64,000 nt of DNA from Bacteroidota bacterium (lineage in GTDB: Bacteria; Bacteroidota; Ignavibacteria; UBA10030; UBA8401). The position numbers and the translations under genes were made by a program. The DNA is taken from NCBI GenBank assembly GCA_008933835.1, contig WBUG01000003.1:1-64000 (forward strand), in the 5' to 3' direction. Positions 4,354 through 23,535 of the stretch are shown piece after piece; the first letter of the stretch is position 1; the number at the start of each line of letters is the position of its first letter. The notes beneath the pieces are model-generated. The model saw nothing but the letters and a program-made list of their open reading frames with translations, ran no database searches and was not told the DNA's origin.

Positions 4354-6603
4354 TCATTTCAGCAGCAGCATCTTCCGTGTGACCCGTCCCCCGCCGGCCG
4401 ATAGCGCACAGAAGTATGTGCCGCTCGGAAGTCCGGCCGCATCGAACCGGATCGTGTGCGTTCCCGCCTCCTTCACACCTTCCGCCAACCGCCCCACCTC
4501 ACGTCCGGCCGCATCGTAGACCGTGAGCGAGACGGGACCGCGGACCGCCAGCGAGTAGCGCAGTGTCGTGGAGGGATTGAACGGATTCGGAAAATTCTGC
4601 TCAAGTGCGAACGATACGACGGTACTCCGTTCCCGGGGACCCTCAGCCGACAGGAGCGGATGGGAGGTCCGGTACGTTGAGTATCCATAGTTGCTCGCGT
4701 CGTTCATGCCGATGACGGTGTACGGCCCCGACAGCGCCGCGGAGGAGACCCGCAGTGCGCCGAAGGTCGGGGGAAGGTCACCGGTGATGTCGTTCCACTG
4801 CGTACCGCCGTCGGTCGAGACGAACAGCTTCTTCGCCGACGTGGAGACGAAGAGACGGCTGCCGGCGGAAGCATACCCGCTCAGGTAGTTGAAGAACGCC
4901 GCTCCGGTGTAGACGCCCTTCCAGCTGTTTCCCTGGTCCGTGCTGACGGAGAGTTTCCCTCCGGCGGCGGTGGAACCGTACGAACCGGCGGCGAGCATTC
5001 CGCCCGCCGAAGCGAGGAACTGTACTGCGGCGGTCCCGAGGGAATCCTTCCCCACCGGCTGCCACACCGTGCTCGTATCGGTCCAGCGGTGCACACCATT
5101 ATTGGCGGACATGAACAGTGCCCCGTTATGGACCACGAGCCGGTGGATATCGGCGGTGCTCCACCCGGCGTTCATCGCGCTCCATGTGTGGCCGGAATCC
5201 TGACTCCGCTGCACTCCGCTCCCCTTCACGCCGGCGTACCACGCCGTGCCCCATTTCACGACGGCCGAGACCGTCTTCCCGTACATGAACTGTGCGTTGG
5301 ACGGGTAACGCCATGTGCGGCCGCGGTCGAACGAACGCGCCACACCGCTGCCGGCCGTTCCGGCGAAGAGCGTGTCGCCGGAGAGCGCGAGCGCGTTGAA
5401 GTTGATGGTGTATCCCAGACCGCCGGAGGACTGCGACCAGGTCGCGGCGCCGTCGCCGCTGCGCAGCAGACCCCACCGGTTGGCGGCGGCATAGACGGTG
5501 TCGCCGTCGGTCAGCATCGCGTTCACATACACCCGCGCCGGCAGTCCTCGTCCGAACGGATGGAACGAAACGCCGCCGTCGAGACTGCGGTGAAGCCCGA
5601 GCAGACCGAGTCCGGCGAACATCTGTCCGTTCACCGTGCACAGCGAGTTCAGCTGCGGTTCGGAGTATCCTGCCAACGACGGGATGGGATGCCACGTGGC
5701 GCCGTTGTCGGTGCTCCGTTTGATGGTCTCGGGAGCGTTGGAGAGCCCTGTCTGCGCGATACCGGCATAGATGCCCGCATCGGTCCATATCATCCGCGAC
5801 ACGGTCGGGATGCCGCCGTTCGGCGCGGTGAGTCCCGTCCCCGCATCGGTGACGAGCTGCCAGGTCTTTCCGCCGTCCACGGAACGGTGCGCCGTACCGA
5901 TGCCGTTCACCATGTACGAAAAGAGCGTGTCGTTCCGGGCGATGAGCTCCTTCCCGTTCAGGTAGTGCGTCCCTCCCTGGCTCAAGTTGGTGAGCACCAC
6001 GCTCCAGTTCTTCCCCTCATCGGTGGACTTGAACAGTGTATCGCTGACGATGTACATCACCGGGCCGTCCACCGCCAGACCGGTGAACTGGTTCTTGGCG
6101 ACCTTCGACGCGGTCCAGTTCTGTCCTCCGTTGTAGGACGAGTAGAGCACGTTCACGGAGTGGATGTGCACGCCGTTCGGCGTGACGTAGATCCGCCCTT
6201 CAGAGACGTACCCGGCGTAGAGGATGCGGAGCGTTCCGGGAGTGACGGCGGTCCACTGCGTGCCGGAGTTCGTGCTGCGGTAGAGCCGCCCCTGCGCCGT
6301 CGCGGGTTCAAGGTAGGACGCATAGACGGTGTCGTTCTTCACCGCCACGGAGTACCCGACGCCGTAGGTCCCGGACGAGACGGCCAGACCGGCGTTCACC
6401 GGCCCCCATGTTTCGCCGGCGTCCGTCGAACGGTAGAAACCGTATCCGAAATTACCGTTGCGGAGCGTGGTCCCTGCCAAGAGCGTTCCTCCGGAGGAGG
6501 CCGCGATATCGGTGATCCACACCTCCTGAGGACCGCGCGCGTCCCACGACTGGGCGGCGATGATGACCGGAACGACGAGCGAGATGAACAGCGGACGGAA
6601 CAT
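4354..6603 (-). CDS. T9SS-exported beta-propeller protein (BNR/sortilin-like repeats), 749 aa
   Basis: An N-terminal signal peptide (MFRPLFISLVVPVIIAAQ) is followed by many Asp-box/BNR-type repeats of the form S-x-D-x-G-x-x-W (STDAGETW, STNSGTQW, STDEGKNW, SVDGGKTW, STDNGATW, SQDSGHTW, STDQGNSW, STDGGTQW), as in sortilin/YCF48-like propellers. The last ~80 residues are a type A T9SS sorting domain: FALEQNFPNPFNPSTTLRY, LTVYDAAGREV and the basic end TRKMLLLK. The protein should cross the outer membrane through T9SS and be released or surface-attached. The repeats bind no recognisable substrate. It is last of three collinear T9SS genes (24 bp after the previous one), with a good AAGGAG ribosome site and a terminator after it. 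Confidence 0.88.
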   Translation of the reverse strand: MFRPLFISLVVPVIIAAQSWDARGPQEVWITDIAASSGGTLLAGTTLRNGNFGYGFYRSTDAGETWGPVNAGLAVSSGTYGVGYSVAVKNDTVYASYLEPATAQGRLYRSTNSGTQWTAVTPGTLRILYAGYVSEGRIYVTPNGVHIHSVNVLYSSYNGGQNWTASKVAKNQFTGLAVDGPVMYIVSDTLFKSTDEGKNWSVVLTNLSQGGTHYLNGKELIARNDTLFSYMVNGIGTAHRSVDGGKTWQLVTDAGTGLTAPNGGIPTVSRMIWTDAGIYAGIAQTGLSNAPETIKRSTDNGATWHPIPSLAGYSEPQLNSLCTVNGQMFAGLGLLGLHRSLDGGVSFHPFGRGLPARVYVNAMLTDGDTVYAAANRWGLLRSGDGAATWSQSSGGLGYTINFNALALSGDTLFAGTAGSGVARSFDRGRTWRYPSNAQFMYGKTVSAVVKWGTAWYAGVKGSGVQRSQDSGHTWSAMNAGWSTADIHRLVVHNGALFMSANNGVHRWTDTSTVWQPVGKDSLGTAAVQFLASAGGMLAAGSYGSTAAGGKLSVSTDQGNSWKGVYTGAAFFNYLSGYASAGSRLFVSTSAKKLFVSTDGGTQWNDITGDLPPTFGALRVSSAALSGPYTVIGMNDASNYGYSTYRTSHPLLSAEGPRERSTVVSFALEQNFPNPFNPSTTLRYSLAVRGPVSLTVYDAAGREVGRLAEGVKEAGTHTIRFDAAGLPSGTYFCALSAGGGRVTRKMLLLK

Positions 6604-6627: not shown

Positions 6628-8766
6628 TCATTTCATGAACATCATTTTCCGCGTGAGGGACGTTCCCCCGGCGGTCATGCGGATGAGGTACGTGCCGCTC
6701 GAAAGTCCGTGCGGCATGAAGTCGACCGAGTGTCCCCCCGCGGCGTGCGGACCGTCGGCGAGCACCGCAACGGTGCGGCCGAGCATGTCATGAACAGTCA
6801 GCCGGACCTCGGAAGGACGCCCCAGCGTGAACCGGATGCGTGTCGAGGGGTTGAACGGATTGGGATAGTTGTGCTCCAGTGCGAATGACGATGGTCCGAG
6901 AGTACGTTCTCCATCCCGTACGGCGGTGGTGACGGCCGCACTGCGGTACATCCCGCCGGACGTTCCGGCGAAGAGATGTCCTGACGCCGAAGCGAAGAGC
7001 GTACGGATGGTCGTTTGATTGTCGATGAGGCCGATACTGGGGAGGATCTCGCTCCATGATACGCCGCCGTTGGTCGAGCGGTAGACGATGGAATTGATGC
7101 CGTTCTTAGCGCCGCCGAAGAAGAGGTGCCCGTCCCGGTCCACCGTCACATGGATGCCGTACGGTTTCACTTTCTGCGTATCGATGCGGACCCAGTTCTC
7201 TCCCGCATCGGTGGAACGGAACAGTCCGGCGTCGCTGCCGCAGAAGAGGTCGCCGCCCGAAGCAATAGCGAGACTGTGCACCATCGTATTCCCCATGCCG
7301 TTCTTCATTTCGGTCCACGTGCTGCCGCTGTCGGTGGAACGCATGACACCCGATCCGGAGAAGGAGCGGAACGCGAACAAGCTCCCGTCGTCTCGCTGCC
7401 GCAGGAAGGTCGCCGGCGTGTTGGAGACCTTTGTCCAAACTTTGCCGTGGTCCATGCTGCGGAAAATGCCGGTACTGGTTGCAGCGATGATGGAAGCGAA
7501 CTTCGTTCCGAGGACCGCATTGACGTAACCGCTGAGGACGGTGATGCCTGAAATGGCCTTGAAGGTCGCCCCCTGGTCCGTCGAGCGGAAGAGCTTCGCG
7601 GGATAGAAATTGTCCCCCACGATGATGGTGTCGCCGTGGAATCCCACGGAGGGGACCCCGTTCACACCGGTGTTGAGGTGCTTCCAGGTCGTCCCGTTAT
7701 CGGTGGTACGATAGAGGTTCTGGTAGGCGCTTCCGCCGGCGGCGACGTACACTTCTCCGTTCGCCCGTTCGGTGAACGCGGTGACGTTCGGATACGCGAC
7801 CGGAAGCGGTTTCCAGGTCGCACCATTGTCGGTCGAACGGTAGGTCTGGTCCTGCGACAGGAAGAGATGTCCCTGTGCGTTGACATGGATACCGGAGAAT
7901 CCGAAGGAAGGGGTCTGGAGCGGTGCCCAGGTCGCGCCGTTGTCGGTGGAGGCGTGGAGCCATTCCGGAAGACCGTTGGAGGACGACATGCCGACGAACA
8001 CTGTTCCGTTCGGCGCCGCCGTGACATCGGCGATGTATGACGATGCGAACGCCGCGAGGTACCAGCTGTTCCCGCCGTCGGTGGACGCCCGCAGACCGTT
8101 CCCGGTCCGGACATAGAGGGTGCCGTTCGGATGGACGACGGCCTTAAAGATGGCGACGGAGTCGAGGCTGTTCGCCCCTTTCGTCCACGTCACGCCGGCA
8201 TCGGTGGAACGAAGCGCGTACCCCCGTTCCGGGTTCCCGTTGCTGCGGGTGAAGGCGTACCAGACCGAACCGTCGTACGTCGCCATGGCGGAGATGGCAG
8301 TGTCCGCTCCGAGCTGCGCGGCGCCCGCGGCTTTTGTGAAGTTCGTACCGTTGTCCGTCGACCGGTAGATGCCGCCGGTCGTTCCGACCACGACCACGCC
8401 GGAGGTGTTCGCCAGCACGGACGAGCACGATGTCTCGGTGATCCCATTGCCGACCACGGTCCAGCTCGCTCCGCGGTTCGTCGAGCGGGAGAGGCGCTGC
8501 TGGTTCTGCGCCAGGAAGATGTTCCCGGCGGGGACCACATGGATGTCCTGCACATAGTTCACGATGACCGCCGGCGACCAGCTCTCGCCGTTGTTCGCCG
8601 AACGGGTGAATCCGGAGTTCATCGTACCGAACACCGTGTCTCCCCCGCCGAACCGCACCTCGTTCAGCCCCACGCTGTACGGAGCGGTGCGGTTCCAGAA
8701 CGCCTGCGCGTGTGCCGCTGAGCCGCACATCACCGTCAACAATACCGCCGTCATCACTTTCATCAT
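6628..8766 (-). CDS. T9SS-exported beta-propeller protein (BNR/sortilin-like repeats), 712 aa
   Basis: The start is set at the ATG at 8766 (MMKVMTAVLLTVMCGSAAHAQ, a clean signal peptide), preceded by GGGGGAAG at a normal distance; a longer in-frame ATG at 8823 would place a polar stretch before the signal. The body has repeated Asp-box motifs (SANNGESW, STNRGASW, STDNGTNF, STDAGVTW, STDGGNSW, STDNGATW, STDQGATF, STDSGSTW, STNGGVSW). The C-terminus has FALEHNYPNPFNPSTRIRF, LTVHDMLGRTV and the basic tail TRKMMFMK, a T9SS type A sorting domain. It lies 53 bp after the 852-aa propeller gene and 24 bp before the 749-aa one, in a likely single operon. Likely role: surface or secreted propeller; ligand unknown. 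Confidence 0.88.
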   Translation of the reverse strand: MMKVMTAVLLTVMCGSAAHAQAFWNRTAPYSVGLNEVRFGGGDTVFGTMNSGFTRSANNGESWSPAVIVNYVQDIHVVPAGNIFLAQNQQRLSRSTNRGASWTVVGNGITETSCSSVLANTSGVVVVGTTGGIYRSTDNGTNFTKAAGAAQLGADTAISAMATYDGSVWYAFTRSNGNPERGYALRSTDAGVTWTKGANSLDSVAIFKAVVHPNGTLYVRTGNGLRASTDGGNSWYLAAFASSYIADVTAAPNGTVFVGMSSSNGLPEWLHASTDNGATWAPLQTPSFGFSGIHVNAQGHLFLSQDQTYRSTDNGATWKPLPVAYPNVTAFTERANGEVYVAAGGSAYQNLYRTTDNGTTWKHLNTGVNGVPSVGFHGDTIIVGDNFYPAKLFRSTDQGATFKAISGITVLSGYVNAVLGTKFASIIAATSTGIFRSMDHGKVWTKVSNTPATFLRQRDDGSLFAFRSFSGSGVMRSTDSGSTWTEMKNGMGNTMVHSLAIASGGDLFCGSDAGLFRSTDAGENWVRIDTQKVKPYGIHVTVDRDGHLFFGGAKNGINSIVYRSTNGGVSWSEILPSIGLIDNQTTIRTLFASASGHLFAGTSGGMYRSAAVTTAVRDGERTLGPSSFALEHNYPNPFNPSTRIRFTLGRPSEVRLTVHDMLGRTVAVLADGPHAAGGHSVDFMPHGLSSGTYLIRMTAGGTSLTRKMMFMK

Positions 8767-8819: not shown

Positions 8820-11378
8820 TCATTTCAACAGCATCATCTTCCGCGTGAGGTCCACCGCTCCGGCCTGCAGCCGGCAGAAGTACAGGCCGGACGAGAGTCC
8901 CTGCGCATGGAACGCCGCTTCGTACGTGCCGGCCTCCATCTCCCCTTCGGTGAGCGTCGCCACCTTCCGGCCGACCACGTCATACACCGAAAGAGTCACC
9001 TTCGACGCCGCCGGCACGGAGAACCGGATGACGGTCGAAGGATTGAAGGGATTGGGATAGTTCTGCTGCAGGATGAATCCCTCGGGTGCCGTCGTACGGA
9101 CGCGCTGCACGGATTCGAGCGCTCCCGGATCGTTGATATAGGCGGCGAAGTTCTGCGAACTGTAACCGTCGATGTAACCGAAATATCCGGAGACGTAGAT
9201 GTTCCCCCGTGTATCGGCGCGGGCCATCGCCATGTCCTGCTGGAAGCTGCTGGTCGCCGTGCCGAGGTTCTCCCACGTGGTGCCGTTCCAGCGGGCGAAG
9301 TATTTGTAGGCGGCGTTGCCGCCGATGGAGGTGAACTTCCCGACGATGTACAACCGTCCCGACTTGTCCACCGCCATGTCCGTGATGCCGGACGTGTTCC
9401 CCTTCAACCCGAGCGAGACCGTGTCCCACGTACTGCCGTTCCATTTCGCGATGTGCCACACCGCCTTGGTGCCGATGGAATCGAACTTCCCGGCGACATA
9501 AAGGTCGTTGCCGACCACCGCCATGGCCGTGATGACCGCCTGTGAGGCGCTCTTGTTGTACCGGAACTCCGCTCCGCCGACGGACGACCACGCCGAACCG
9601 TCCCACCGCGCTACGGCGGATGCCGGCATGGTTCCCGCCGTGGTGAAGCTCCCCGCGGCGAACAGTTCGTTCCCTTTCACCGCCAGGGCGTAGACCGTTC
9701 CCTTCGATGCACCCGAACGGATACCGGTCCCGATGGAATCCCACGCCGTTCCGTTCCACCGCACGATGCTGTACGCCGTCTTCTGGTTCGGGAAGACCCC
9801 GAACGGCGCGTCGAACGAACCGGCCACGACGATGTCCGAACCGTACCGGACGATGGCGCGGACGTCCGAACCGAACGAACCGGGCTGACCGGGACCGTTC
9901 ATGCTCTGGAACGATGAACCATTCCATTTGATGACCCCCATGGAATTGACGCCGTTGAAGGAGGAAAAACCGCCGCCGATGTACAGGACGGTATCGTCGC
10001 TGGCGAGGGCGCGGACGGTGGAGGTGTTCTTGTAGCTGCCTGTGCCGACCGAATCCCACCGCTGACCGTTCCACCGCGCCAGACGGCGCGCCGGGGTGGC
10101 GCCGGCGTAGTTGAACTCGCCGCCGACGAACACGTCGCCGTTGGAACGTTCGTGGAGCGTGAAGACGGCGCCGTCCGGGAAACCGTGCGTGTTCTTCCCG
10201 ACGAGGGCGCTCCAGCGTTCGTTGACGATGTCGTACGACGCCGCGCCGGTCGTCCCCACGCCACCGGGGTATTTGAAGTCACCACAGAGCAGGAGGCGGC
10301 CGCCGGAGAGGATCATATCGTTCACCCGCGGATTCTGTCCGTACTGCGACGAGGTGATGCCGGTGCCGAGCTTCTCCCATGTTTTGCCGTTCCAGCGCGA
10401 GACCGCGTCCACCGTGCTGTTGGCCGACGAAGGGGCGCGCACGCCGGCGACGTAGACCCGTCCGAGGGAATCGACCTCGACCTGCGTCAGTTCGGTCGTC
10501 GTACCGGCACCGAGCGTGTCCCACGAACTCCCGTTCCACCGCGCGATGCAGTTGGCGATCTTCCCGCCCGCCCTGTTGAACGCTCCGACGACGTACAGCG
10601 TATCGCCGTGGACGGCGATGTCGTTCACATGCGCCCTCGCCGTCGTCCCGGACACGCCGGCCACCGAACCGGTGAGGCCCGTCGCCACCGTGTCCCACGT
10701 GCTGCCGTTCCACTTCATGATGGCGACGTTCTCCTTATCGAACGTGCTCACGGAATAGGTCGCCGAGTAGATGCGGCCGTCCGGCGTGACGGTGAAGGCA
10801 CGGTTGGTGACGCTGTTGTTGGAGTTCGCGAGCGACAGCGAACCGATCGAATCCCACGTGCTCCCGTTCCACACGGCCACGCCTTTCACCGAAAGGGTGC
10901 CTGCCTTCGTGAACGGCCCGACGACATACAGTTTTCCGTTCCGGTACTGCATCCTCGTTGGCGCGCTGAACGCGGACATCGAGTATGCCCCCGGCACCGA
11001 ATCCCATTTCGTACCGTTCCATTTGACGATTCCCCTTTTCGCCAATGGACCGACACCCATGTACGGGCCGGAGACGTAGACATCCTCGCCGTCACCCGCC
11101 GCCATCGCGACCACGGGGAACGACGAACCGTAGAAGCCGCCCGGAACGGAATCCCACCCGGTCGCCTGGCGCCAGCGCGCGAAGAAGTTCGTCCGGACAC
11201 CGAACGCGTAATCGAATCCGCCGCCGAGGTAGAGCGTCCCGGACGACGTCAGTGCGATGCCGGTCGGCACGTTATTGTTCGTTCCGTTCTGGCCGTACCG
11301 CAACGACCAGTATCCCTGTCCGGACAACGGCGCCGTCAGCACGACGGCGATCACGAGCGTCAGTATCGTTCGATTCAC
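8820..11378 (-). CDS. T9SS-exported WNG-repeat beta-propeller protein, 852 aa
   Basis: The start is a GTG at 11378 (product MNRTILTLVIAVVLTAPLSGQ, a signal peptide), because AAAGGGGGAG lies just upstream; an in-frame ATG at 11489 would begin before the previous small gene ends. About fifteen repeats of the type ARWNGSSWDTLG or VKWNGTKWDSVP alternate with LYVVGxFxxAG strands, a pattern of delta-60/kelch-like propellers distinct from the Asp-box repeats of its two operon partners. The end has ILQQNYPNPFNPSTVIRF, LSVYDVVGRKV and LTRKMMLLK, a T9SS sorting domain. It follows the receiver fragment by 13 bp and is the first large gene behind the sigma-54 promoter at 11620-11635. Confidence 0.87.
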   Translation of the reverse strand: MNRTILTLVIAVVLTAPLSGQGYWSLRYGQNGTNNNVPTGIALTSSGTLYLGGGFDYAFGVRTNFFARWRQATGWDSVPGGFYGSSFPVVAMAAGDGEDVYVSGPYMGVGPLAKRGIVKWNGTKWDSVPGAYSMSAFSAPTRMQYRNGKLYVVGPFTKAGTLSVKGVAVWNGSTWDSIGSLSLANSNNSVTNRAFTVTPDGRIYSATYSVSTFDKENVAIMKWNGSTWDTVATGLTGSVAGVSGTTARAHVNDIAVHGDTLYVVGAFNRAGGKIANCIARWNGSSWDTLGAGTTTELTQVEVDSLGRVYVAGVRAPSSANSTVDAVSRWNGKTWEKLGTGITSSQYGQNPRVNDMILSGGRLLLCGDFKYPGGVGTTGAASYDIVNERWSALVGKNTHGFPDGAVFTLHERSNGDVFVGGEFNYAGATPARRLARWNGQRWDSVGTGSYKNTSTVRALASDDTVLYIGGGFSSFNGVNSMGVIKWNGSSFQSMNGPGQPGSFGSDVRAIVRYGSDIVVAGSFDAPFGVFPNQKTAYSIVRWNGTAWDSIGTGIRSGASKGTVYALAVKGNELFAAGSFTTAGTMPASAVARWDGSAWSSVGGAEFRYNKSASQAVITAMAVVGNDLYVAGKFDSIGTKAVWHIAKWNGSTWDTVSLGLKGNTSGITDMAVDKSGRLYIVGKFTSIGGNAAYKYFARWNGTTWENLGTATSSFQQDMAMARADTRGNIYVSGYFGYIDGYSSQNFAAYINDPGALESVQRVRTTAPEGFILQQNYPNPFNPSTVIRFSVPAASKVTLSVYDVVGRKVATLTEGEMEAGTYEAAFHAQGLSSGLYFCRLQAGAVDLTRKMMLLK

Positions 11379-11391
11379 TGCTCCCCCTTTA

Positions 11392-11592
11392 TTATGGTTT
11401 TTCGGATGACGGCCCGCAGCCAAGTTCATCGGTCTCCCCCAGAATGAACTTGATGGGAATCTGCCGGCAGATCCTTCTCGCCGTCTCACTGTCCGTCGCG
11501 GTCATGACGCTGTATCCTTCCCGCGTCAGCAGCTCACGGAGCTTTCGAAGTTCCTGTGTGTTCTTGTCGATAATGAGGATGTGTTCCGGCAT
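11392..11592 (-). CDS. Truncated response-regulator receiver fragment (66 aa)
   Basis: MPEHILIIDKNTQELRKLRE... matches the first half of a CheY-like receiver: beta-1 ILIIDKN with only one acidic-pocket residue (Asp-9), helix 1, and GYSVMTATDSETARRI as beta-2/helix 2. At beta-3, where the phospho-acceptor Asp should be, it reads KFILGETDEL, and the protein ends 14 residues later. It therefore cannot be a working phospho-receiver. It is either a decayed gene or a small non-phosphorylated partner protein. It is the first gene behind the sigma-54 promoter and lies 13 bp before the 852-aa T9SS gene. No strong Shine-Dalgarno is visible. Confidence 0.55.
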   Translation of the reverse strand: MPEHILIIDKNTQELRKLRELLTREGYSVMTATDSETARRICRQIPIKFILGETDELGCGPSSEKP

Positions 11593-11619: not shown

Positions 11620-11635
11620 TGCAAAGACCGGACCA
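11620..11635 (-). promoter_or_regulatory. Sigma-54 (-24/-12) promoter of the T9SS propeller operon
   Basis: On the minus strand the 16 bases TGGTCCGGTCTTTGCA match the sigma-54 consensus (TGGCACG-N4-TTGCA) with the required GG-N10-GC spacing and a perfect TTTGCA -12 half. Transcription would start near 11609, about 17 nt before the receiver-fragment ATG. The next gene upstream encodes a sigma-54 activator, which supports the call. Confidence 0.65.
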
Positions 11636-11764: not shown

Positions 11765-13483
11765 TCAGAGGTCGATGGAGAGTTGTGAAAGGAGTTTATA
11801 GAAGTGCGTCCGGTTGATGCCGAGGGTCTGAGCCGCTTCGGACTTGGACTTCGCCTGGCGCAGCACCCGAATTATATAGAGACGGCGGAACTCGGTCTCG
11901 GCCTCTTCCAGCGTTTTTCCGCCGTACACGACCGGTGCGTTCCGTTCGGATTCCACGATCTCCGGCGGCAGGTCTTCCGGTCCGATATCGGTCCCCTTCA
12001 TCAGCACCACGGCTCGCTGGACGATGTTGTCCAGTTCGCGGACGTTCCCGGGGAAATGATAGCTCTCGAGGACGGCGAGGGCTTCGGGAGTGATACCGGG
12101 AAGCCGGTCCGGCGCGTGTTTCCGGATGAAGAAACGGACGAGCTCGTCGATGTCCTCACGGCGGTCGCGCAGCGGCGGCATCGTCAGTTCGATGACCTTC
12201 AGTCGGTAGTACAGGTCCTCGCGAAAGGTTCCGGCGGCCACCATTTCCGGGATGTTGCGGTTGGTCGCGACGATGACCCGCACATCGATCTTCCGGGTCT
12301 GTACGCCGCCGAGCCGTTCGATCTCCCGGTTCTGCAGCATCCGCAGCAATTTCGCCTGCAGGTTCACGCTCATCTCCCCGATCTCGTCCAGGAAGAGCGT
12401 CCCGCCGTCGGCCAGTTCGATCTTCCCCGGTTTGGACCGTGTGGCTCCAGTGAACGCGCCGCTCTCGTATCCGAACAGTTCCGACTCAAGAAGGTCGTTC
12501 GGGATGGCACCGCAGTTGATGGTGACGAACGGACGGGCGGAGCGGCGGCTGTTGCGGTGGATGGCGTTCGCCAGCAGGTCCTTCCCCGTTCCGTTCTCGC
12601 CGAGCAGGATAACCCCCGCATCGGTCGACGCGATGCGCGATGCGACCTTCAGCACGTCGAAGAGCGCCCGGCTTCCGCCGATGATGTCGTCGCAGCGGAA
12701 CTCGCGCCGGAGGTCTTCGAACCGCATCACCGCGTCGGCGACCAGCTTCTTCTCCAGCGTGGTGATCTCGGACGAGATCTCGAACCCGCGGACGATCTGC
12801 CGTGCGAAGGAGAGCAGGTACACCAGGTCCGCCTCCGTGAATCCGTGCTCCCGGTTCCTCCGGTCGATGTACACCGCGCCGAACACCCGCGCTCCCGCCG
12901 CAAGCGGAACGCACATCGCGGCCGTGATGCCGAGCCGCACGATGCTGTGCTGCTGCGCCATCGCATCGTCGAACTGCGGGAACTGCGTCGGTTCGGACCG
13001 GGCGATGGTGTTGCGGATGACCGTCATGCTCATCTCTTTCGCGTCGGGGTTCGATTCCGGGTCCATGTTGCACGCCACCACCCCGTCCGGTCTCCCATCA
13101 CGGTCCGCCAGCACGATGAACCCTTCGTCCGCGCCGAGCTCTTTCACGACGGTCGTCACCGCCTTCTCCATCAGCGCCCGCATCTCCGTCTCGGAGGTGA
13201 AGAGGATACCGGAGGCGTAGAGGACCTCGTACTGCCGTTTCGCTTCGGTCATGCGCTCCAGGGAACGCTCGAGACGTTCGGCAGCGTCGAACGCGGTGTT
13301 CGTCTCGCCGCTGAGGCGACGGTTGGCCTCCATCACCTGGGCGAAGAGGCGGTCGAGCTTCTTCACGGCGTCGGCAGGCGCTCCGGCGCTCCGGAGCAGC
13401 GTGGAGAGCTCCATGAACTCCGTCGAGATCTGGCCGGTGGCGTCGCTGAGCATTTTCTGGAATCGCTGTCGTGTGTCCGACAT
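11765..13483 (-). CDS. Sigma-54-dependent transcriptional activator with GAF sensor domain (572 aa)
   Basis: Order of parts: a helical, coiled-coil-like N-terminus (1-85), a GAF domain (about 90-235, e.g. LGADEGFIVLADRDG and AGARVFGAVYIDRR), the AAA+ core (about 260-490) and a Fis-type helix-turn-helix (about 525-572, SEAAQTLGINRTHFYKLLSQ). The core has Walker A GENGTGKD (295-302), the sigma-54-contacting GAFTGA loop (342-347) and Walker B TLFLDEIGE. There is no receiver domain, so control is probably through the GAF ligand or by modification. The start is ATG 13483, 10 bp after the Ser/Thr kinase gene, which suggests one operon and the kinase as a possible regulator. A sigma-54 promoter faces the same way 130 bp downstream. 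Confidence 0.92.
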   Translation of the reverse strand: MSDTRQRFQKMLSDATGQISTEFMELSTLLRSAGAPADAVKKLDRLFAQVMEANRRLSGETNTAFDAAERLERSLERMTEAKRQYEVLYASGILFTSETEMRALMEKAVTTVVKELGADEGFIVLADRDGRPDGVVACNMDPESNPDAKEMSMTVIRNTIARSEPTQFPQFDDAMAQQHSIVRLGITAAMCVPLAAGARVFGAVYIDRRNREHGFTEADLVYLLSFARQIVRGFEISSEITTLEKKLVADAVMRFEDLRREFRCDDIIGGSRALFDVLKVASRIASTDAGVILLGENGTGKDLLANAIHRNSRRSARPFVTINCGAIPNDLLESELFGYESGAFTGATRSKPGKIELADGGTLFLDEIGEMSVNLQAKLLRMLQNREIERLGGVQTRKIDVRVIVATNRNIPEMVAAGTFREDLYYRLKVIELTMPPLRDRREDIDELVRFFIRKHAPDRLPGITPEALAVLESYHFPGNVRELDNIVQRAVVLMKGTDIGPEDLPPEIVESERNAPVVYGGKTLEEAETEFRRLYIIRVLRQAKSKSEAAQTLGINRTHFYKLLSQLSIDL

Positions 13484-13493
13484 ACTGTCCTCG

Positions 13494-16400
13494 TTACATG
13501 GATGCAAGAGCGTCCGCGAGCTCCGCGGCGGTCGCAAAACGTGAGGCCGCGTCCTTGGCCAGGCACCGCGCCGCCGCGGCGTCCCATGCCGGCGGCACCT
13601 CCGGTCGGAGCGTCGACGGCGGCGGCGGAACGGTGTTGAAGATGGAATGGATGAGCGCGATCTCGTTCTCCCCTTTGAACGGAAGCGTGTTCGTGAGCAG
13701 TTCGTAGAGGATGACGCCGAGGGAGAAGATGTCGGTCCGCGCGTCCACATCGGTGCTGGTGACCTGTTCCGGCGCCACATAGCCGAGCGTACCGAGCACC
13801 GTTCCGAGCGACGTCATGGTGGTCACCAGCGGTGATTTCGAGAGGCCGAAGTCCATGATGCGGACCCGTCCGTCGTCGCCGAACATCAGATTGCCGGTCT
13901 TCAGGTCGCGGTGCACGATGCCGGCGGCATGGACGGCGGTGAGTCCGCCGCACACCTGCCGGACGATCTCCCGCACTTCCGGCAGCGGGAGCGGATGCCG
14001 CTGCGCGAGACGTTCGCGGAGCGTGCCGCCGCCGAGGAACTCCATCGCGATATATCCGCGTCCCTCCGACTCTCCCGTTTCGTACACGGTGACGATGTTC
14101 GGATGGTCGAACGACGCCAGCAGATGGCCCTCCGCAGCGAGCCGGCGGCGGTTCTCGGGGTCGTTCATCAGTTCCGGGTTCAGGACTTTCACGGCCGCCG
14201 GGCGTTTCGTCACCGTGTCCGCCGCGCGGTAGACCTTCCCCATCCCCCCCTGACCGATGAGTTCACCGAGACGGTATCGGCCGATGTGCTGTGCACGGCG
14301 CCGTTCGTCCCGGACATGTCGCCCCCAGGCCGCCGCGATTCCTGTTCCTGAGGTGACGAGGAACGACAGCACGATGTTCGCGGCCGGAGCGGTACCGGAG
14401 AGCGCATAGACGAGAAGGAGGTGAACGGCGGCGGAGAGGCCGATGGTGACGGACGCGGTCGCCTGCCTCCGCAATCCCGCCGGGGCGGCCAGCAGGAAGA
14501 AGAGCAGGAGCGCCGCTGCGGTCAGGAGCGCTTTGGCGGATTCGATGCGCCAATCCAGCATCGCCGCTGCCCGGCGGACCGAAAGACCCGAAAGGATGAG
14601 CCAATGGAGATAGGCACCCGACTCACGCACGAGCGTGCTCGAAGGAACCGGCAGTATCGTATCACCGCTCTTGAAGCGGATTCGGACCGGCTCCTCCTTC
14701 CCCACGGACTCCGGAAGGATGACTCGGCGCGATGAGTTCGGTATCATCGGCGATGCGCCCTCTCCCACCGTTGCGTTCCACGGACCGGCGGTGACCGTGA
14801 TGCCGGTGCCGCTCCGGTTCCCGCGGTCCGGTTCGAGCCGCAGAACACGTGCCTCTTCCGGATCGAGGTTGTTGCGGTAGAGCACCGCACGGTCTCCGGT
14901 GCCGAGACTGGCGCGTGCGCTTCCGATGAAGAGGTCCAGATCGCCGTCGCCGTCGATGTCCGCGAACGACGGATTCCCGGCGAACTGGAGGCCGACCCGT
15001 TCCGACACCTCGGTGAACCGCATCCCGGCGGAGTTCAGGTAGAGTTTGGAACCAATGAAGAGGTCGAGCCGGCCGTCGTTATTGACGTCCGCCGCCGCCA
15101 TCATTCCGTTGGAGGGTTCCGCATGGAAGATCGTTTCGGTCAGACCGGACCGGGCTCCCTGTTCCGTGAAGCGGCCGTTCCCGTCATTGATGAAGAGAAG
15201 CGGCGGCGCTTTCTGACAGTGCACCGCGAAATCCGCCGCGCCGTCGTTGTTGAAGTCGCCCGGCACGGCGATGGTGGGGGCGATGTCGTTCTCCGCAATG
15301 TAGAGCGGCTGCGATGCGCGCCGGAACGTCCATCCGCCCGCGTTGAGGAAGAGGTCGAAGAAGGAGCCTTTATAGCTGACGTAGTACGGGAGAAGGATGT
15401 CGGTGCGGCCGTCCCCGTTCACATCGGCGAACGCGGCTCCGTACGATGCATGGCCGGTATGCTTCGAGATGCCTGCATCGTCCGTCACGTCGGTGAACCG
15501 CCCGGTCCCGTCGTTCCGGAAGAGCTGGTCCGGAAGGTCATAGTTCGAAATGTACAGGTCCAGGGCACCGTCGCCGTCCAGGTCCACGAACCGAGCGGCG
15601 TTCAGGCCGGACGCGTTCATCTCGCGGAGTGCGAGACCGGAACGTTCTGTCATATCTTCGAATCCGCCGGTGAGCGTACCGCGATGGAGCGTGAAGAGAC
15701 GGTGGTCCGCGATCTGCAGCAGATCCGTTCGGCCGTCATTGTCCACGTCGCCCGCCGCTACGGCGGATGGATCGCGCGGCGCTCCGGACAATCCCCGCTG
15801 CACGGTCACGTCCGTGAAGACCGCCGAGCCGTCGCTCTCATACAAGAGGTTGCTGCTCCCTTCGTTGAAGAGGAAGAGCCCGGGACGTTCGTCCGTCCCT
15901 TCGTCGAGGAAGAGCGCGCCGCGGCCGTGCCGGCGCAGTGACGAGGGACCGGTGACGTCCGTGAAGGAGAAACCGGTGGAGTTGGCAGTGGTGTAGATGC
16001 CGAGTCCCCCGATGATCCAGAGGTCTCTCGCGCCGCCGTTGGCGATGACATCGATGTCCGACAGGACATCATCGTATACGAGGATGGAGGGCTCGGTACG
16101 CCAGACTCCACCGGTACGTTTCAGCAGTGTCGAAGCGTTGCCGACGGCCCACACTTCGTCCGCGCCGATGACCTTGAGAGAGTTGAGCGTTTCGCGCGTT
16201 CCGGACTCTTCTTCGCTCCACTCTCTCCCGTTCCAGCGGATCACCGTCCCCCGTTCACCCACCGCCCATCCGTTGCCCGCATCGGCGAAACGGACCCGGA
16301 ACAGACTCTTCTGTGTCGGCGATGGTGTCCGTTCCCACCGGCCGTTCCGGTACCGGAGGATGACTCCGCCGCGTCCTACCGCCCATCCGTTCCCGTCATC

Positions 16401-17018
16401 GAGCATGCAGATATCGTTCAGGTCGCCGTCATAGGCGTTGACGCGGTCGTCGGTGAGCAGCGGGCTTGCGACCTCCTTCCATGACCGTCCGTCATTATGG
16501 AGGATGTGCCCCTGTTGGCCCACCATCCATCCTTTCCCGTCCGCAAACTGATGGATTCCTTTCATCATCACATGGTCCACGGCATCCCACATAATGACCG
16601 GAAGAGGGACGTCCCGCCGGCCTGCCGGGGAGAACGAGGTGAAGACCGGCCGGTATGCGCCGTCATGGGTACGATGCGTGACGAGGGAGATACCGTGCAT
16701 CGAGTCACGGCTGGCGATGAGGGGAAAATCGGAGTACGGGAAGTGATGGAGCGGCTGCCACTGTCCGCCCCGGAAACGGTACAATTTCCCGGAGAACTCG
16801 CGTCCCCTTCCCCGCGAGACGGCGATGCCGTCGCTGTCGGAGAACATCACGATGCGGGTGCCAAGGTCCACCGACGCCTGCCGGTACCACTGCAACGTGT
16901 CCGCCGCTCCTTCACGGGAGCGCTCTGTACGATCGTCCGGTCCGGAACAGCCTGCAGCGAGGAGGAGCATCAGGGGAACCGTCAGACGGCGCGCTATGTT
17001 CAATCCAATGCAGAACAT
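13494..17018 (-). CDS. Transmembrane Ser/Thr protein kinase with beta-propeller, FG-GAP and UnbV-like ectodomain (1174 aa)
   Basis: Starting at ATG 17018, a signal segment ends in a lipobox-like LLAAGC. The exported part begins with YCF48-like repeats (GNGWAVGRGGVILRYRNGRW, GNGWAVGERGTVIRWNGREW), then five or more FG-GAP/VCBS repeats with Ca-binding-like DxDxDG loops (VDLDGDGALDLY, ADVNGDGRTDIL, GDFNNDGAADFA, ADIDGDGDLDLF), then an ASPIC/UnbV-like segment. Three membrane helices follow, placing the last ~263 residues in the cytoplasm. That part is a Hanks-type kinase: GQGGMGKVY loop, AVKVL lysine, HRDLKTGN catalytic loop, DFG and APE. All catalytic residues are present. The start has no strong ribosome site; a TTG five codons later is an alternative. 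The kinase sits 10 bp before the sigma-54 activator. Confidence 0.88.
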   Translation of the reverse strand: MFCIGLNIARRLTVPLMLLLAAGCSGPDDRTERSREGAADTLQWYRQASVDLGTRIVMFSDSDGIAVSRGRGREFSGKLYRFRGGQWQPLHHFPYSDFPLIASRDSMHGISLVTHRTHDGAYRPVFTSFSPAGRRDVPLPVIMWDAVDHVMMKGIHQFADGKGWMVGQQGHILHNDGRSWKEVASPLLTDDRVNAYDGDLNDICMLDDGNGWAVGRGGVILRYRNGRWERTPSPTQKSLFRVRFADAGNGWAVGERGTVIRWNGREWSEEESGTRETLNSLKVIGADEVWAVGNASTLLKRTGGVWRTEPSILVYDDVLSDIDVIANGGARDLWIIGGLGIYTTANSTGFSFTDVTGPSSLRRHGRGALFLDEGTDERPGLFLFNEGSSNLLYESDGSAVFTDVTVQRGLSGAPRDPSAVAAGDVDNDGRTDLLQIADHRLFTLHRGTLTGGFEDMTERSGLALREMNASGLNAARFVDLDGDGALDLYISNYDLPDQLFRNDGTGRFTDVTDDAGISKHTGHASYGAAFADVNGDGRTDILLPYYVSYKGSFFDLFLNAGGWTFRRASQPLYIAENDIAPTIAVPGDFNNDGAADFAVHCQKAPPLLFINDGNGRFTEQGARSGLTETIFHAEPSNGMMAAADVNNDGRLDLFIGSKLYLNSAGMRFTEVSERVGLQFAGNPSFADIDGDGDLDLFIGSARASLGTGDRAVLYRNNLDPEEARVLRLEPDRGNRSGTGITVTAGPWNATVGEGASPMIPNSSRRVILPESVGKEEPVRIRFKSGDTILPVPSSTLVRESGAYLHWLILSGLSVRRAAAMLDWRIESAKALLTAAALLLFFLLAAPAGLRRQATASVTIGLSAAVHLLLVYALSGTAPAANIVLSFLVTSGTGIAAAWGRHVRDERRRAQHIGRYRLGELIGQGGMGKVYRAADTVTKRPAAVKVLNPELMNDPENRRRLAAEGHLLASFDHPNIVTVYETGESEGRGYIAMEFLGGGTLRERLAQRHPLPLPEVREIVRQVCGGLTAVHAAGIVHRDLKTGNLMFGDDGRVRIMDFGLSKSPLVTTMTSLGTVLGTLGYVAPEQVTSTDVDARTDIFSLGVILYELLTNTLPFKGENEIALIHSIFNTVPPPPSTLRPEVPPAWDAAAARCLAKDAASRFATAAELADALASM

Positions 17019-17057
17019 TGTATAGAGAATGTAAAGAATGTTGCAAGATTTTCCCAA

Positions 17058-17088
17058 TTGGAACATCATGGTCAAATCCGTATCTTCC
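17058..17088 (+). promoter_or_regulatory. Promoter of the HMA-domain gene (TTG-N20-TATCTTCC)
   Basis: TTG at 17058-17060, 20-bp spacer, TATCTTCC at 17081-17088, then a leader of about 22 nt containing AAGGAG before the ATG at 17115. It lies in the 96-bp divergent region shared with the kinase gene. Confidence 0.55.
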
Positions 17089-17114
17089 ATTCATCAACCA
17101 CCGAAGGAGTGCTC

Positions 17115-17522
17115 ATGAAGCATTTTGTCATTGCCGCCCTGCTCACCGTCAGCGTCGCTCTCTATGCGGCGGACAAGACGAAGACCGTCACCCTCTCCGT
17201 GTCGGGCATGACCTGTGAGTCGTGCGCCGGGACGGTCGAGAAGGCGTTGAAGAAAATGGAGGGAGTTCAGAAGGTCTCGGTCAACATCAAGCAGAAGAAC
17301 GCGGTGGTGACGCTCGCTTCGGCCAGCAAGACCTCCGCGGCGGCGCTCGCCAAAGCGGTGACCGACGCCGGATTCACGGCCACCGAATCGAAGGGAGTGA
17401 AAGCCGGAACGGTCCAGAAGAAGATGATGGACGAAGGATGCGGTGACGGATGCTGCGGAGACGAGTGCGGTACCGAAGCGAAGCCGGCGAAGGCGAAGAA
17501 GGGCGACGCGAAGAAATCCTGA
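17115..17522 (+). CDS. Exported heavy-metal-associated (HMA) domain protein with Cys-rich tail (135 aa)
   Basis: A signal peptide (MKHFVIAALLTVSVALYAAD) precedes one ferredoxin-fold HMA domain (about 22-95) with the metal-binding motif GMTCESC (Cys-34, Cys-37), like MerP or the soluble modules of copper ATPases. An unusual tail follows: CGDGCCGDEC (Cys at 109, 113, 114, 118), then a Lys/Ala-rich end. The tail could hold a second metal ion. Function is likely periplasmic binding of Cu, Hg or a similar soft metal; no transporter or metal regulator is adjacent, so the metal is unknown. ATG 17115 has AAGGAG at an ideal distance. Divergent from the kinase gene. Confidence 0.85.
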   Translation: MKHFVIAALLTVSVALYAADKTKTVTLSVSGMTCESCAGTVEKALKKMEGVQKVSVNIKQKNAVVTLASASKTSAAALAKAVTDAGFTATESKGVKAGTVQKKMMDEGCGDGCCGDECGTEAKPAKAKKGDAKKS

Positions 17523-19792: not shown

Positions 19793-19814
19793 TCAATGAC
19801 CCGATTGGGTCATT
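19793..19814. repeat. 22-bp palindrome, copy 1, overlapping the response-regulator stop codon
   Basis: AATGACCC-N4-GGGTCATT with flanking TC. It is identical at 20 of 22 positions to the copy at 20476-20497. The regulator gene ends inside it (stop at 19810-19812). Confidence 0.7.
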
Positions 19815-20445
19815 CAACGATGCGCTCGGTGATGGCTTTGGAGACCGCCTGCGTGCGGGAGTTGACGTGCAGTTTTTCGTAGATGTGCTTGAGGTGGTTG
19901 CGGACCGTCTCGTAACTGATGAAGAGGCGGTCGGCGATCTCGCGGTTGTCATGACCGTGCACCAGCGCCGACAGGATCTCCTTTTCGCGCGCGGTGAGGT
20001 CGTATTCCGCTTTCGGCGGCGTGTTGGCCTTGAAATGCTCGATGATGCGCCGTGCGACGGCGGGAGTCATCGGCGTTCCGCCGGCAGCGGCATCATCGAG
20101 CGCCGTGAGGATGCGGGCGGGAGGTGTCCGTTTCAAGAGGTAACCGTCCGCCCCGGCAAGGATGGCACGGAAGATCGAATCGTCGTCGTCGAACACCGTC
20201 ACCATCACGATGCGGACCGACGGAAGCTCCTTTTTGAGGAGCGGAACGGCGTCGATGCCGGAGCGGCCGGGCAGGTCGATATCAAGGAGGATCACATCGC
20301 AGGCGGGCATGCCGCGCAGCGCCGCCTCGACCGAACCGAACGCCGCGGCCACCACGAAACCGCCGGCGGACGAGAGCAATTCGATGAGCCCCTGACGGAA
20401 ATCAGGATGGTCCTCGATGATGACGATGCGGATCCGGTCGGCCAT
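19810..20445 (-). CDS. NarL/LuxR-type response regulator (211 aa)
   Basis: A receiver domain (1-125) with acidic pocket Glu-11/Asp-12, phospho-acceptor Asp-55 in LLDIDLPG, and a conserved Lys near residue 105 (GYLLKRTPP). A LuxR/GerE helix-turn-helix follows (about 148-205, LTAREKEILSALVHGHDNRE and YETVRNHLKHIYEKLHVNSR). All key residues are intact. It lies 30 bp after the propeller histidine kinase gene and is its obvious partner. It probably acts as a DNA-binding dimer. The stop codon falls within a 22-bp palindrome that also ends the kinase gene, and the T9SS propeller gene follows. Confidence 0.93.
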   Translation of the reverse strand: MADRIRIVIIEDHPDFRQGLIELLSSAGGFVVAAAFGSVEAALRGMPACDVILLDIDLPGRSGIDAVPLLKKELPSVRIVMVTVFDDDDSIFRAILAGADGYLLKRTPPARILTALDDAAAGGTPMTPAVARRIIEHFKANTPPKAEYDLTAREKEILSALVHGHDNREIADRLFISYETVRNHLKHIYEKLHVNSRTQAVSKAITERIVE

Positions 20446-20475
20446 GGTACAATGAGCGAATCGGTGATGGTCGGT

Positions 20476-20497
20476 TCAATGACCTGTTTGGGTCATT
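20476..20497. repeat. 22-bp palindrome, copy 2, overlapping the histidine-kinase stop codon
   Basis: AATGACC-N6-GGTCATT core, 20 of 22 bases shared with copy 1. The kinase stop codon is at 20476-20478. Not followed by a T-run, so not a typical terminator. Confidence 0.7.
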
Positions 20498-23400
20498 TGT
20501 TTGATGACGGAAATGATGGTCCCTCCGCTCTCCCTCGCCTGAACGGTGAACACCGCTCCCATCTCCTCCGCCCGTTTCCGCATATTGTGCATCCCGTTCC
20601 CGCCGAGACGTCCGCCGTCGGACTCCGTCGCGATGCCTGTGCCGTCATCGGCGACCGTGAGACGGATCGAATCCGGCTCGGCGGAGAACGTCACCCGTAT
20701 CTCGGTCGCATGGGCATGCCGGACGACGTTGGTGAGCGCCTCCTTGAAGATGAGATAGAATCCGCGCCGCACATCGTCACTCACCGCCGCCGTGAGGTCG
20801 CCGCCGGCCTCCACCGACTGGCGCAGACCCCGGGCCCGGCAGAGGTCGGCGGTGACCAACCGAAGACGGGAGACAAGGCTCTGCAGCGTGTCGTGCTTGG
20901 GAGAGACCGACCAGACGATGTCGCTCATCGCCTCCTCCGCATCGGACAGGATGCCGCTCGTCTTATCGAGGAACTCACGCACCGCAGCGGGGTCCGAATC
21001 GAGACGGCGTCGTGCCGTTTCAACGAACAGTCCGGCGCTACCGACGGTGGAAGCCAGGTCGTCGTGCAGGTCACGCGCGATGATGTCGCGGGTCCGCTGC
21101 CGCTCTTCGGCGATGCGGCGGTCCTGTTCCAACCGCTCGAGACGGCGCCGGTAGATGCGGTTCGCCCGGAACCGGACGAATCCTCCGACCGTGCCGCCGA
21201 ACAGCAACACGGCGAACGTGCGGAACCACCAGGTCGCCCAGAACGGCGGAACGATGACGATACGGAACGACGCTCCCTCTTCGTTCCATACTCCATCGTT
21301 GTTCGAAGCCTTGACGCGGAACGTGTACTCTCCGGGACCGATATCGGTGTAGTTGGCGAATCGCCGGGTGCCGGCATCGTTCCACGCGGTCTCGAGCCCT
21401 TCGAGCCGGTAGGCATACCGGTTGTTCTGCGGCACTTCGAAGTTCAGTGCGGAGAATTCGAACGAAAAGAAGTTCTCTGTATGCCGGAGCACCGCTTCGG
21501 TAGCGGACAGCAGCGAGTCCCTCGGACGGTTCATCACGGCGAACCGAGTGATGGCGACCGGCGGCGGAACGGTGTTCCGGCCGATCGTGCCGGGATGGAA
21601 CCGAACGACACCTCCCATGCCGCCGAAGTACATCGTTCCGTCCGGATCCTGGAAGTATGAGTTCTGGTTGAACTCATCCAACGGCAGTCCGTCGCGGCTG
21701 GTGAAATTGCGGAACTCGGCCGTACGGGGATCGAACCGGGAGAGTCCCCCGTTGGTGGATATCCACAGACATCCGTCGTCGTCCTCAAGGATGCCGTAGG
21801 CATAGTCGTTGACCATGCCCTCTTTCGTCATGAAACGCCGGATGGAGAACGAACCTCCCGTCTCGTCGATGCGGACCAGTCCCATCCCCATCGTGGCGGC
21901 CCACAGCACTCCGTCGCGGCCGCGATGCAGACAGGTGACGGGGACCCCCGGGGATGAGGCGGTCGGCCGGAGTAGTACCGTATCGATGGAACCGTCGTCG
22001 GTGCGGAGACGGACGAGTCCGCGGGCGTTCGTCCCGGCCCAGGCGGTCGAGTCTTCCACGAGCAATGAGAGGATGTACCGGTGGCCCTGCGATTCGACCG
22101 GCGTATCGTTGAGGATGCGGTCCCACGTTCCGGTCTCCGGCTGATACCGCACGATACCTCGTGTCGTCGCGATCCACAACCGGGAATGGTCATCTTCGGT
22201 GATGGCGTAGATCTTGTTCTCACCGGCGCGTTCCGAAATGTCACCAGAGAAGAGCACCGGTAAAAACCTGTCCAGTTCCTCTTCATACCGGTTAAGTCCG
22301 TACCGATTCCCCGTCCACAATCGGCCGTTGCGGTCACGGTAGATCCAATGGATCCCCTCGCTGCTCAGACCGGCATTCTTCGTGGTGTACGTTCGCCATT
22401 GTGACATCCGTCGGTCGAACCGGAAGAGCTCCTTTTGCGTACCGACCCAGACGGACGAGTCATCGGTGACATGGAGCGCCAGTGGGAACCGCCCGCTGAA
22501 CGGACCAGGCCGCAGGAACGGGACCGGCAGCGGAACGAACCGCTTCCGTTCCGGCGGCAATGCGAAGATGCCGATCTTTGTACCGAACCACAGCACACCG
22601 GTACGGTCTTCCAGCAGGGCATAGACGATGGAATTCGCGATGCCGATCCCGCCATCATCCACACGCCGGAAGCGGAGCAGCCGACGTGACGGTCCGTCCC
22701 TATCGAACTCCGCAAGGAACAATCCGGACTCGGTGGCCGTCCAGAAACGACCCTGTGAGTCCTCCATCACGAACCGGAACGACCGTTCGGACATTGTCTC
22801 GTACCGAGGCCGGACGATCCGCATCTGCACAGTGTCGAACTCGAGCAGACCGGCTCCGTCCGTGGAAACCCAGAATCTTCCGAAGCGGTCCTCCACCGCA
22901 TGGTAGAGCCTCGTCGCAGCGGAAACGCCGAGGGAATCAGGATGGAACGGAACGTACTTCTCCTCTCCTGATTCGCTCGTCATCCGTACACCGCGGGAGA
23001 AGACCGTAAGGAGGCCGCCGGACCGTGTCCGCAATACGGATGCCACGTGTGCATCGGGTCCGACACGGACCGGAGGTTTCAGCGGGCTGCCGGAGGAGTA
23101 CTTCAACAGACCGTACGTGCTCGCCAGACCGATGGTGTCCCCGTCCAGTCTCGCGAATTGACTCGGTCCCAGTTCGTCGGTGGCACCGAACGGCAGCCGG
23201 ATCACCGTTCCCGACCGTCGCTCGAACACGTTCACCCCTCGGTTCGATGTACCAAGCCACAGTCTGCCGTCAGCCGCCTCGGACATGCAGATGATGCTGT
23301 TGACGGAAAGCGAGGACGAATCGTCGGGGTCATGCCGGTACCGTACGAACTCGTATCCGTCGTACCGGTTCAGTCCGTCCCACGTCCCGAACCAGAGGAA

Positions 23401-23535
23401 CCCTTCACGGTCCTGCACGATGGACATCACGGACAACTGCGTGAGTCCCTCTTCAAGTCCGATGCGCTGAAAACGATACGACTGCGACCGGACCACCGAC
23501 GATATGAGCATCACGAAGAAGAGTGTACGCGCCAT
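20476..23535 (-). CDS. Hybrid-type sensor: reg_prop/Y_Y_Y beta-propeller histidine kinase (1019 aa)
   Basis: Signal peptide (MARTLFFVMLISSVVRSQ), two stacked seven-bladed propellers of reg_prop repeats (FLWFGTWDGLNRYDG, GRLWLGTSNRGVNVFE, GRLWTGNRYGLNRYEE, GCLWISTNGGLSRFDP), then a Y_Y_Y domain (YAYRLEGLETAWNDAG, GPGEYTFRVKASNNDG). One membrane helix (FWATWWFRTFAVLLFGG) leads to a cytoplasmic HisKA_3 dimerisation domain with phospho-acceptor His-824 in RDLHDDLAS and a HATPase domain (N box LTNVVRHA, DDGTG, GNGMHNM). Unlike the Bacteroides hybrid systems it carries no receiver; the regulator is the next gene. In related systems this ectodomain senses glycans or other extracellular ligands. Its -7 element ends only 4 nt before the ATG. 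Confidence 0.93.
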   Translation of the reverse strand: MARTLFFVMLISSVVRSQSYRFQRIGLEEGLTQLSVMSIVQDREGFLWFGTWDGLNRYDGYEFVRYRHDPDDSSSLSVNSIICMSEAADGRLWLGTSNRGVNVFERRSGTVIRLPFGATDELGPSQFARLDGDTIGLASTYGLLKYSSGSPLKPPVRVGPDAHVASVLRTRSGGLLTVFSRGVRMTSESGEEKYVPFHPDSLGVSAATRLYHAVEDRFGRFWVSTDGAGLLEFDTVQMRIVRPRYETMSERSFRFVMEDSQGRFWTATESGLFLAEFDRDGPSRRLLRFRRVDDGGIGIANSIVYALLEDRTGVLWFGTKIGIFALPPERKRFVPLPVPFLRPGPFSGRFPLALHVTDDSSVWVGTQKELFRFDRRMSQWRTYTTKNAGLSSEGIHWIYRDRNGRLWTGNRYGLNRYEEELDRFLPVLFSGDISERAGENKIYAITEDDHSRLWIATTRGIVRYQPETGTWDRILNDTPVESQGHRYILSLLVEDSTAWAGTNARGLVRLRTDDGSIDTVLLRPTASSPGVPVTCLHRGRDGVLWAATMGMGLVRIDETGGSFSIRRFMTKEGMVNDYAYGILEDDDGCLWISTNGGLSRFDPRTAEFRNFTSRDGLPLDEFNQNSYFQDPDGTMYFGGMGGVVRFHPGTIGRNTVPPPVAITRFAVMNRPRDSLLSATEAVLRHTENFFSFEFSALNFEVPQNNRYAYRLEGLETAWNDAGTRRFANYTDIGPGEYTFRVKASNNDGVWNEEGASFRIVIVPPFWATWWFRTFAVLLFGGTVGGFVRFRANRIYRRRLERLEQDRRIAEERQRTRDIIARDLHDDLASTVGSAGLFVETARRRLDSDPAAVREFLDKTSGILSDAEEAMSDIVWSVSPKHDTLQSLVSRLRLVTADLCRARGLRQSVEAGGDLTAAVSDDVRRGFYLIFKEALTNVVRHAHATEIRVTFSAEPDSIRLTVADDGTGIATESDGGRLGGNGMHNMRKRAEEMGAVFTVQARESGGTIISVIKQMTQTGH

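Follow-up and report, generated by a model that had tools for sequence, protein, structure and literature searches.

Receptor Ser/Thr kinase with two predicted extracytoplasmic propellers, co-inherited with a sigma-54 activator and a half-receiver gene in Ignavibacteria

The DNA analyzed here (the window) is a stretch of 64,000 nucleotides from a Bacteroidota bacterium of the class Ignavibacteria (lineage UBA10030, UBA8401; assembly GCA_008933835.1, contig WBUG01000003.1, positions 1 to 64,000). It contains a receptor Ser/Thr kinase gene (13494..17018, minus strand) coding for 1174 amino acids. The reading frame is open from 13494 to 17090, and a further in-frame ATG is found upstream at 17090; this start was rejected because the relatives, which are about 1180 amino acids long, begin near 17018. 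A gene coding for a sigma-54 activator of 572 amino acids (11765..13483, minus) begins 10 bp downstream of the kinase stop. Next on the same strand is a half-receiver gene (11392..11592) coding for 66 amino acids (MPEHILIIDKNTQELRKLRELLTREGYSVMTATDSETARRICRQIPIKFILGE...), and a -24/-12-like element, TGGTCCGGTCTTTGCA (11620..11635, minus), lies 27 bp before its ATG. A preliminary description of this DNA treated the kinase as a lone odd gene and overlooked the conserved activator and half-receiver partners.

From the N- to the C-terminus, the kinase comprises a lipobox signal, a YCF48-like propeller, a predicted FG-GAP propeller, a UnbV/ASPIC-like segment, three membrane helices, and a Hanks kinase domain, an architecture that is much more than chance. 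The kinase domain (residues ~913-1171, 13506..14282) matched Pkinase (PF00069) over residues 915-1162 in the Pfam scan, with an E-value of 2e-52, and its nearest PDB sequences are PknE and PknB. Lys944, Glu963, the HRD residues H1036, R1037, and D1038, Asn1043, Asp1056, and G1058 are invariant in 16 relatives. The window kinase has the whole set of Hanks-type features (PF00069, catalytic Lys and Glu, HRD, Asn, the Asp of DFG, and the substrate loop); it is intact and predicted to be catalytically competent. No PASTA domain was found in the Pfam scan of the receptor kinase, and the match to the PASTA-kinase model NF033483 was confined to the kinase part and stayed below the cut-off (301.9 versus 450 bits). 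The preliminary description had proposed an intact C-terminal Hanks kinase and a reversed order, with the sensor at the N-terminus, and both proposals were borne out by the sequence and its relatives.

The three membrane helices (residues ~831-897, 14328..14528) were located by hydropathy and by the distribution of Lys and Arg. In each of the 16 class members tested, the stretch from the UnbV segment to the kinase shows exactly three hydrophobic peaks; positive charges follow helices 1 and 3, and there are almost none between helices 2 and 3. This positive-inside pattern therefore assigns the sensor to the outside and the kinase to the cytoplasm, in agreement with the topology proposed before. 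The signal with the lipobox LLAAGC occupies residues 1-24 (16947..17018). After an N-terminal hydrophobic stretch, 17 of 17 class members have a Cys whose preceding residue is G, S, A, or N, a count that allows for three members whose called start codon, too far in or out, was moved; the lipobox is not present in distant relatives of family f32. The N-terminus is thus probably lipidated, as predicted from the sequence, and the lipobox-like motif can be retained as a likely N-terminal anchor.

The first propeller is seven-bladed and covers residues ~48-346 (15981..16877). It matched PSII_BNR (PF14870) with an E-value of 8.5e-7 and a score barely over the Pfam cut-off (28.9 versus 27 bits). AlphaFold2, run on residues 25-365 with two input sequences, returned a closed propeller with a predicted local distance difference test (pLDDT) value of 73, and the top Foldseek matches were the YCF48 crystal structures 2xbg and 5oj5 (E-value 4e-10, template modeling score 0.61-0.66). 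These results uphold the YCF48 propeller of the preliminary description. In VIA-align, seven-bladed propellers aligned at Z ~27 over residues 48-346; it also listed many Gbeta and WD40 matches, which were not taken as homology. A match to YCF48 or to seven-bladed propellers reflects a common fold and says nothing on the ligand. The first propeller resembles the photosystem II assembly factor YCF48 and PSII_BNR proteins in profile and fold. However, it is here one module of a receptor kinase, in a bacterial class bearing the type IX secretion system (T9SS), and no link to photosynthesis was seen.

The following part of the sensor (residues ~365-718, 14865..15926) is predicted to form an FG-GAP propeller. 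FG-GAP_3 (PF13517) matched it in five stretches with an E-value of 8.9e-34, and it contains six loops of the DxDxDGxxD type, the majority of which are invariant among 13 sequences, and seven blade-length repeats counted by eye. When a profile built from the relatives was compared with PDB, it matched human CRTAC1 (9etn, 1.3e-15) and integrin alpha-V (~1e-5). The AlphaFold2 model of the FG-GAP/UnbV half (two sequences) reached only pLDDT 41 and was not used, so the previously proposed FG-GAP propeller with calcium-type loops stands on a sequence basis; structure prediction of the sensor gave a closed propeller for the first half and no usable model for the second. The propeller is followed by a degenerate UnbV/ASPIC-like segment (residues ~722-800, 14619..14855). 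UnbV_ASPIC (PF07593) matched 8 of 13 family segments at the same place, with a best E-value of 2.4e-7, and the earlier UnbV-like assignment is therefore right by homology, although the window copy is degenerate and has no Pfam match. In CRTAC1-type proteins, UnbV/ASPIC is combined with an FG-GAP propeller, and the second half of the ectodomain is like this family both in its best PDB profile match and in the UnbV of its relatives. Unlike the receptor described here, CRTAC1 proteins are not kinases, and the window copy differs in its degenerate UnbV.

A close comparison among known receptors is PknD of Mycobacterium tuberculosis, a kinase-transmembrane-NHL receptor with a single six-bladed propeller (PMC2877116). 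PknD is likewise a transmembrane Hanks kinase whose extracytoplasmic propeller has been proposed as a sensor (PMC2877116). In PknD, however, the kinase is N-terminal and the propeller C-terminal, and there is one NHL propeller with no FG-GAP/UnbV, lipobox, or sigma-54 partner. An architecture survey of Ser/Thr kinases in prokaryotes reported PQQ and NHL propellers, mostly with an N-terminal kinase, and no FG-GAP (PMC1262709). In a literature search with subscription journals largely outside its reach, no report was found that joins FG-GAP with Hanks-type kinases, joins Ignavibacterium with Ser/Thr kinases and T9SS, or describes this receptor architecture or its sigma-54 partner.

Full-length relatives of about 1180 amino acids with the same domain order were found in 15 of the 294 genomes that were sampled from the class, spread over several families and patchy inside each. 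They are 35-61% identical over the sensor region, and distant relatives at ~28% identity occur in family f32, which belongs to another class of the phylum. The f32 receptor kinases (L061, L063, and L064) lie near a full-length response regulator and a histidine kinase, not a sigma-54 activator. In one class relative (L053 ~7300-7631, G294:C45), an in-frame TGA stop stands at a conserved glycine position in the region coding for the kinase N-terminus; either this copy is broken or the assembly is in error.

The activator combines a family-specific N-terminal region with a GAF domain, an AAA+ domain carrying the GAFTGA loop, and a Fis helix-turn-helix (HTH). The AAA+ domain matched PF00158 with an E-value of 2e-70 and the C-terminal HTH matched HTH_8 at 0.004 (Pfam), and the GAFTGA loop is invariant in 13 relatives, as in bacterial enhancer-binding proteins. 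Activator identity across relatives is 46-81%, and the GAF domain carries invariant residues. Searched with its first 240 residues as query, the activator was found in 15 of 15 kinase genomes and in 1 of 279 others, and in that one genome (G018) the contig begins inside the kinase gene. The activator lies directly behind the kinase, with a gap of 0-112 bp, in most class loci, and the flanking genes vary between families; the half-receiver gene is inserted between the two in L046 and L056, and a glnB-amt block in genus g68. A single sigma-54 gene and ~13 activators are present in the genome.

GAF-type sigma-54 activators such as NifA and NorR have the same GAF-AAA+-Fis order and GAFTGA loop. 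The activator described here differs from them in its family-specific N-terminal region and in being tied to a Ser/Thr kinase rather than to a histidine kinase or NifL. The nearest named model, NifA (TIGR01817), was not reached (369.7 versus a cut-off of 528.85 bits). FHA-domain activators of Myxococcus have been proposed to link Ser/Thr kinases to sigma-54 transcription; in contrast, the present activator has a GAF domain, and the Pfam scan showed no FHA domain, which is the module that usually recognizes phospho-Thr. In the g68 loci L050, L051, and L053, a block of glnB, porin-like, and amt genes lies beside or between the kinase and activator genes. A general role in nitrogen regulation, as the NifA-like activator and glnB-amt might indicate, was rejected because the glnB-amt block is limited to this genus. 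On another contig of the window's own genome (C145, L071:5314-9137), a second, cytosolic-looking Hanks kinase and another GAF-type sigma-54 activator share a strand and lie within ~1 kb of each other, and the kinase/sigma-54 pairing may therefore be more general here.

The half-receiver was recognized as a conserved short gene by reading the sequence where an excess of -24/-12-like sites lay, and 11 of the loci first examined carry it. Across loci it codes for 63-76 amino acids, a truncated receiver without the phospho-acceptor Asp. The receiver profile (PF00072) matches each of the 11 copies, mostly weakly and at best with 2.7e-6; in the window copy, the match is limited to positions 1-46 of the 111 in the profile and scores 20.4 bits against a cut-off of 30.2. 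It thus resembles the receiver domains of response regulators, but it ends before or at the phospho-acceptor place, where half-receivers have E, S, or K, and the second half of the fold is missing, so that a full receiver fold with its phospho-acceptor Asp is not present. The window and L030 copies differ at 8, 6, and 31 sites in codon positions 1, 2, and 3, respectively, and this concentration of divergence at third positions indicates a genuine protein-coding gene. Because the phospho-acceptor site is lost, the half-receiver is probably not a normal phospho-switch and probably acts by binding, as a feedback component or adaptor. Its profile gave E-values of at most 4e-25 in 14 genomes, and the next matches, mainly longer receiver proteins, appeared only from 4e-10. 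These 14 are among the 15 kinase genomes, and none of the 279 others has the gene. The half-receiver gene is on a different contig from the kinase gene in some genomes, and their co-occurrence therefore need not reflect linkage alone.

The region just downstream of the activator is also marked by a promoter-like element at a near-fixed position. The best -24/-12-like score there, on the same strand, averages 8.5, whereas the corresponding means are 1.5 for the opposite strand and 1.6 for the regions that follow other genes of these loci; none of 20,000 permutations reached this excess, which was noticed post hoc among three regions inspected. The element mostly lies 23-27 bp before the half-receiver ATG, and in five loci added later, the best site was at 25-26 bp in four. 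The window, L030, and L032 show the GG (-24) and GC (-12) pair at the fixed spacing, and GA, GT, or GG stands at -12 in several others. A strict genome scan for TGGCACNNNNNTTGCW gave 5 matches, versus 9 for a reversed-pattern control. Elsewhere in the window, the best -24/-12-like site overall, TGGAACAGCTTTTGCA (46943-46958, plus strand), lies upstream of an apparent 2-oxoacid:ferredoxin oxidoreductase operon.

Three T9SS-sorted propeller proteins are encoded behind the half-receiver on the minus strand. The first (8820..11378; TIGR04183, 1.5e-8) and second (6628..8766; 9.6e-9) are predicted targets, and the third (4354..6603; 6.9e-9) is a possible one. T9SS-sorted proteins lie in this position in family f1, where they are themselves propellers, and in several f14 genomes; other loci have a lipoprotein of ~256 amino acids or outer-membrane proteins, assigned by eye.

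Taken together, we consider it somewhat better than an even chance (a probability of roughly 0.55) that an envelope-sensing receptor kinase controls the sigma-54 activator, which in turn switches on the half-receiver operon. The kinase would be an inner-membrane receptor with a probably lipidated N-terminus, exposing its two propellers and the UnbV/ASPIC-like segment in the periplasm. The propellers would most likely read a periplasmic ligand or the state of the envelope and activate the cytoplasmic kinase, which would relay this input, through phosphorylation or contact, to the product of the next gene, the activator. With sigma-54 RNA polymerase, the activator would then act on the -24/-12-type promoter before the half-receiver gene, and expression of the operon may change surface or secreted proteins, with the half-receiver as a binding partner and not a phosphorylated switch. 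It is possible, though on balance doubtful, that the three genes form one undescribed signaling module, in which a kinase doubly anchored by lipid and helices acts on a dedicated GAF-type activator, its substrate, while a truncated receiver serves as first target and binding regulator, controlling surface and T9SS-secreted proteins.

The architecture, linkage, and co-occurrence and the position of the promoter-like element are observations; the signal, phosphorylation of the activator, direct activation, and the function of the half-receiver are inferred. Several points weigh against this signaling route. The two co-occurrence tests gave nominal Fisher p values of 5e-23 (kinase with half-receiver) and 3e-24, which are overstated, as the genomes were treated as independent and the values are inflated by relatedness. 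The f32 relatives have neither lipobox nor activator, indicating that the receptor can function without a sigma-54 partner. The main rival, which we judge rather unlikely, is that the activator's GAF domain senses its own ligand: kinase and activator would belong to one pathway in which a small molecule acts on the GAF domain, as in NorR or NifA, and the targets of the kinase are proteins other than the activator, such as the half-receiver or factors of the envelope. The invariant GAF residues, the position of NifA as nearest named model, albeit below its cut-off, and the lack of an FHA domain in the activator agree with this, whereas the near-perfect co-occurrence and the adjacency of kinase and activator better fit a direct link.

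The promoter is a further point of dispute. The five later loci have modest scores, only weakly over background, no clear element is found in L046 and L082, and the -12 half is TTGA or TTGT, not TTGC, in several f14 genomes; because of this departure from the consensus, the element is called only sigma-54-like and is not proven. These scores and the deviating -12 half would suit an element that is a chance or other-sigma motif beside a half-receiver that is a mere neighbor with another role. We regard this as improbable, given the near-fixed distance to the ATG in unrelated contexts, the permutation result, and the strict phyletic co-occurrence of half-receiver and kinase even when unlinked. 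More improbable still is a mainly structural or adhesive ectodomain, whose propellers bind envelope polymers or secreted proteins while the kinase tunes the envelope or T9SS machinery directly and the sigma-54 gene regulates its own operon. The resemblance of the FG-GAP and UnbV modules to CRTAC1 and integrins and the T9SS genes close by speak for such a role; however, every catalytic residue is retained, and in the window and most loci the promoter-like element comes after the activator gene rather than ahead of the kinase. As for the output of the proposed kinase-to-activator route, T9SS cargo is common, with ~147 sorting-domain matches in the 3.6-Mb genome (G000), and the T9SS genes behind the half-receiver are therefore suggestive only.

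Bacterial Ser/Thr kinases typically act on many targets, and few transcription partners dedicated to them are known. In the present case, patchily distributed genomes inherit a receptor kinase together with a single sigma-54 activator and a single small receiver fragment, which suggests an undescribed bacterial route from an outside signal to gene activity. This set of genes offers a defined input, switch, and output for testing, and possibly links the cell surface to genes for surface and secreted proteins. The half-receivers also represent a conserved class of short genes that common gene-length cut-offs can miss.

Two neighbors upstream of the kinase were also noted. A divergent gene (17115-17522, plus strand), 96 bp from the kinase start, codes for a small secreted heavy-metal-associated (HMA) protein with the motif GMTCESC. 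It is likewise divergent in L030 and L033 and not in other families, and copper or heavy-metal sensing was rejected because the gene adjoins the kinase in only three f1 loci. A two-component pair (19810-23535, minus strand), consisting of a histidine kinase with a Reg_prop/Y_Y_Y propeller and a LuxR-type response regulator, lies two genes upstream of the receptor kinase.

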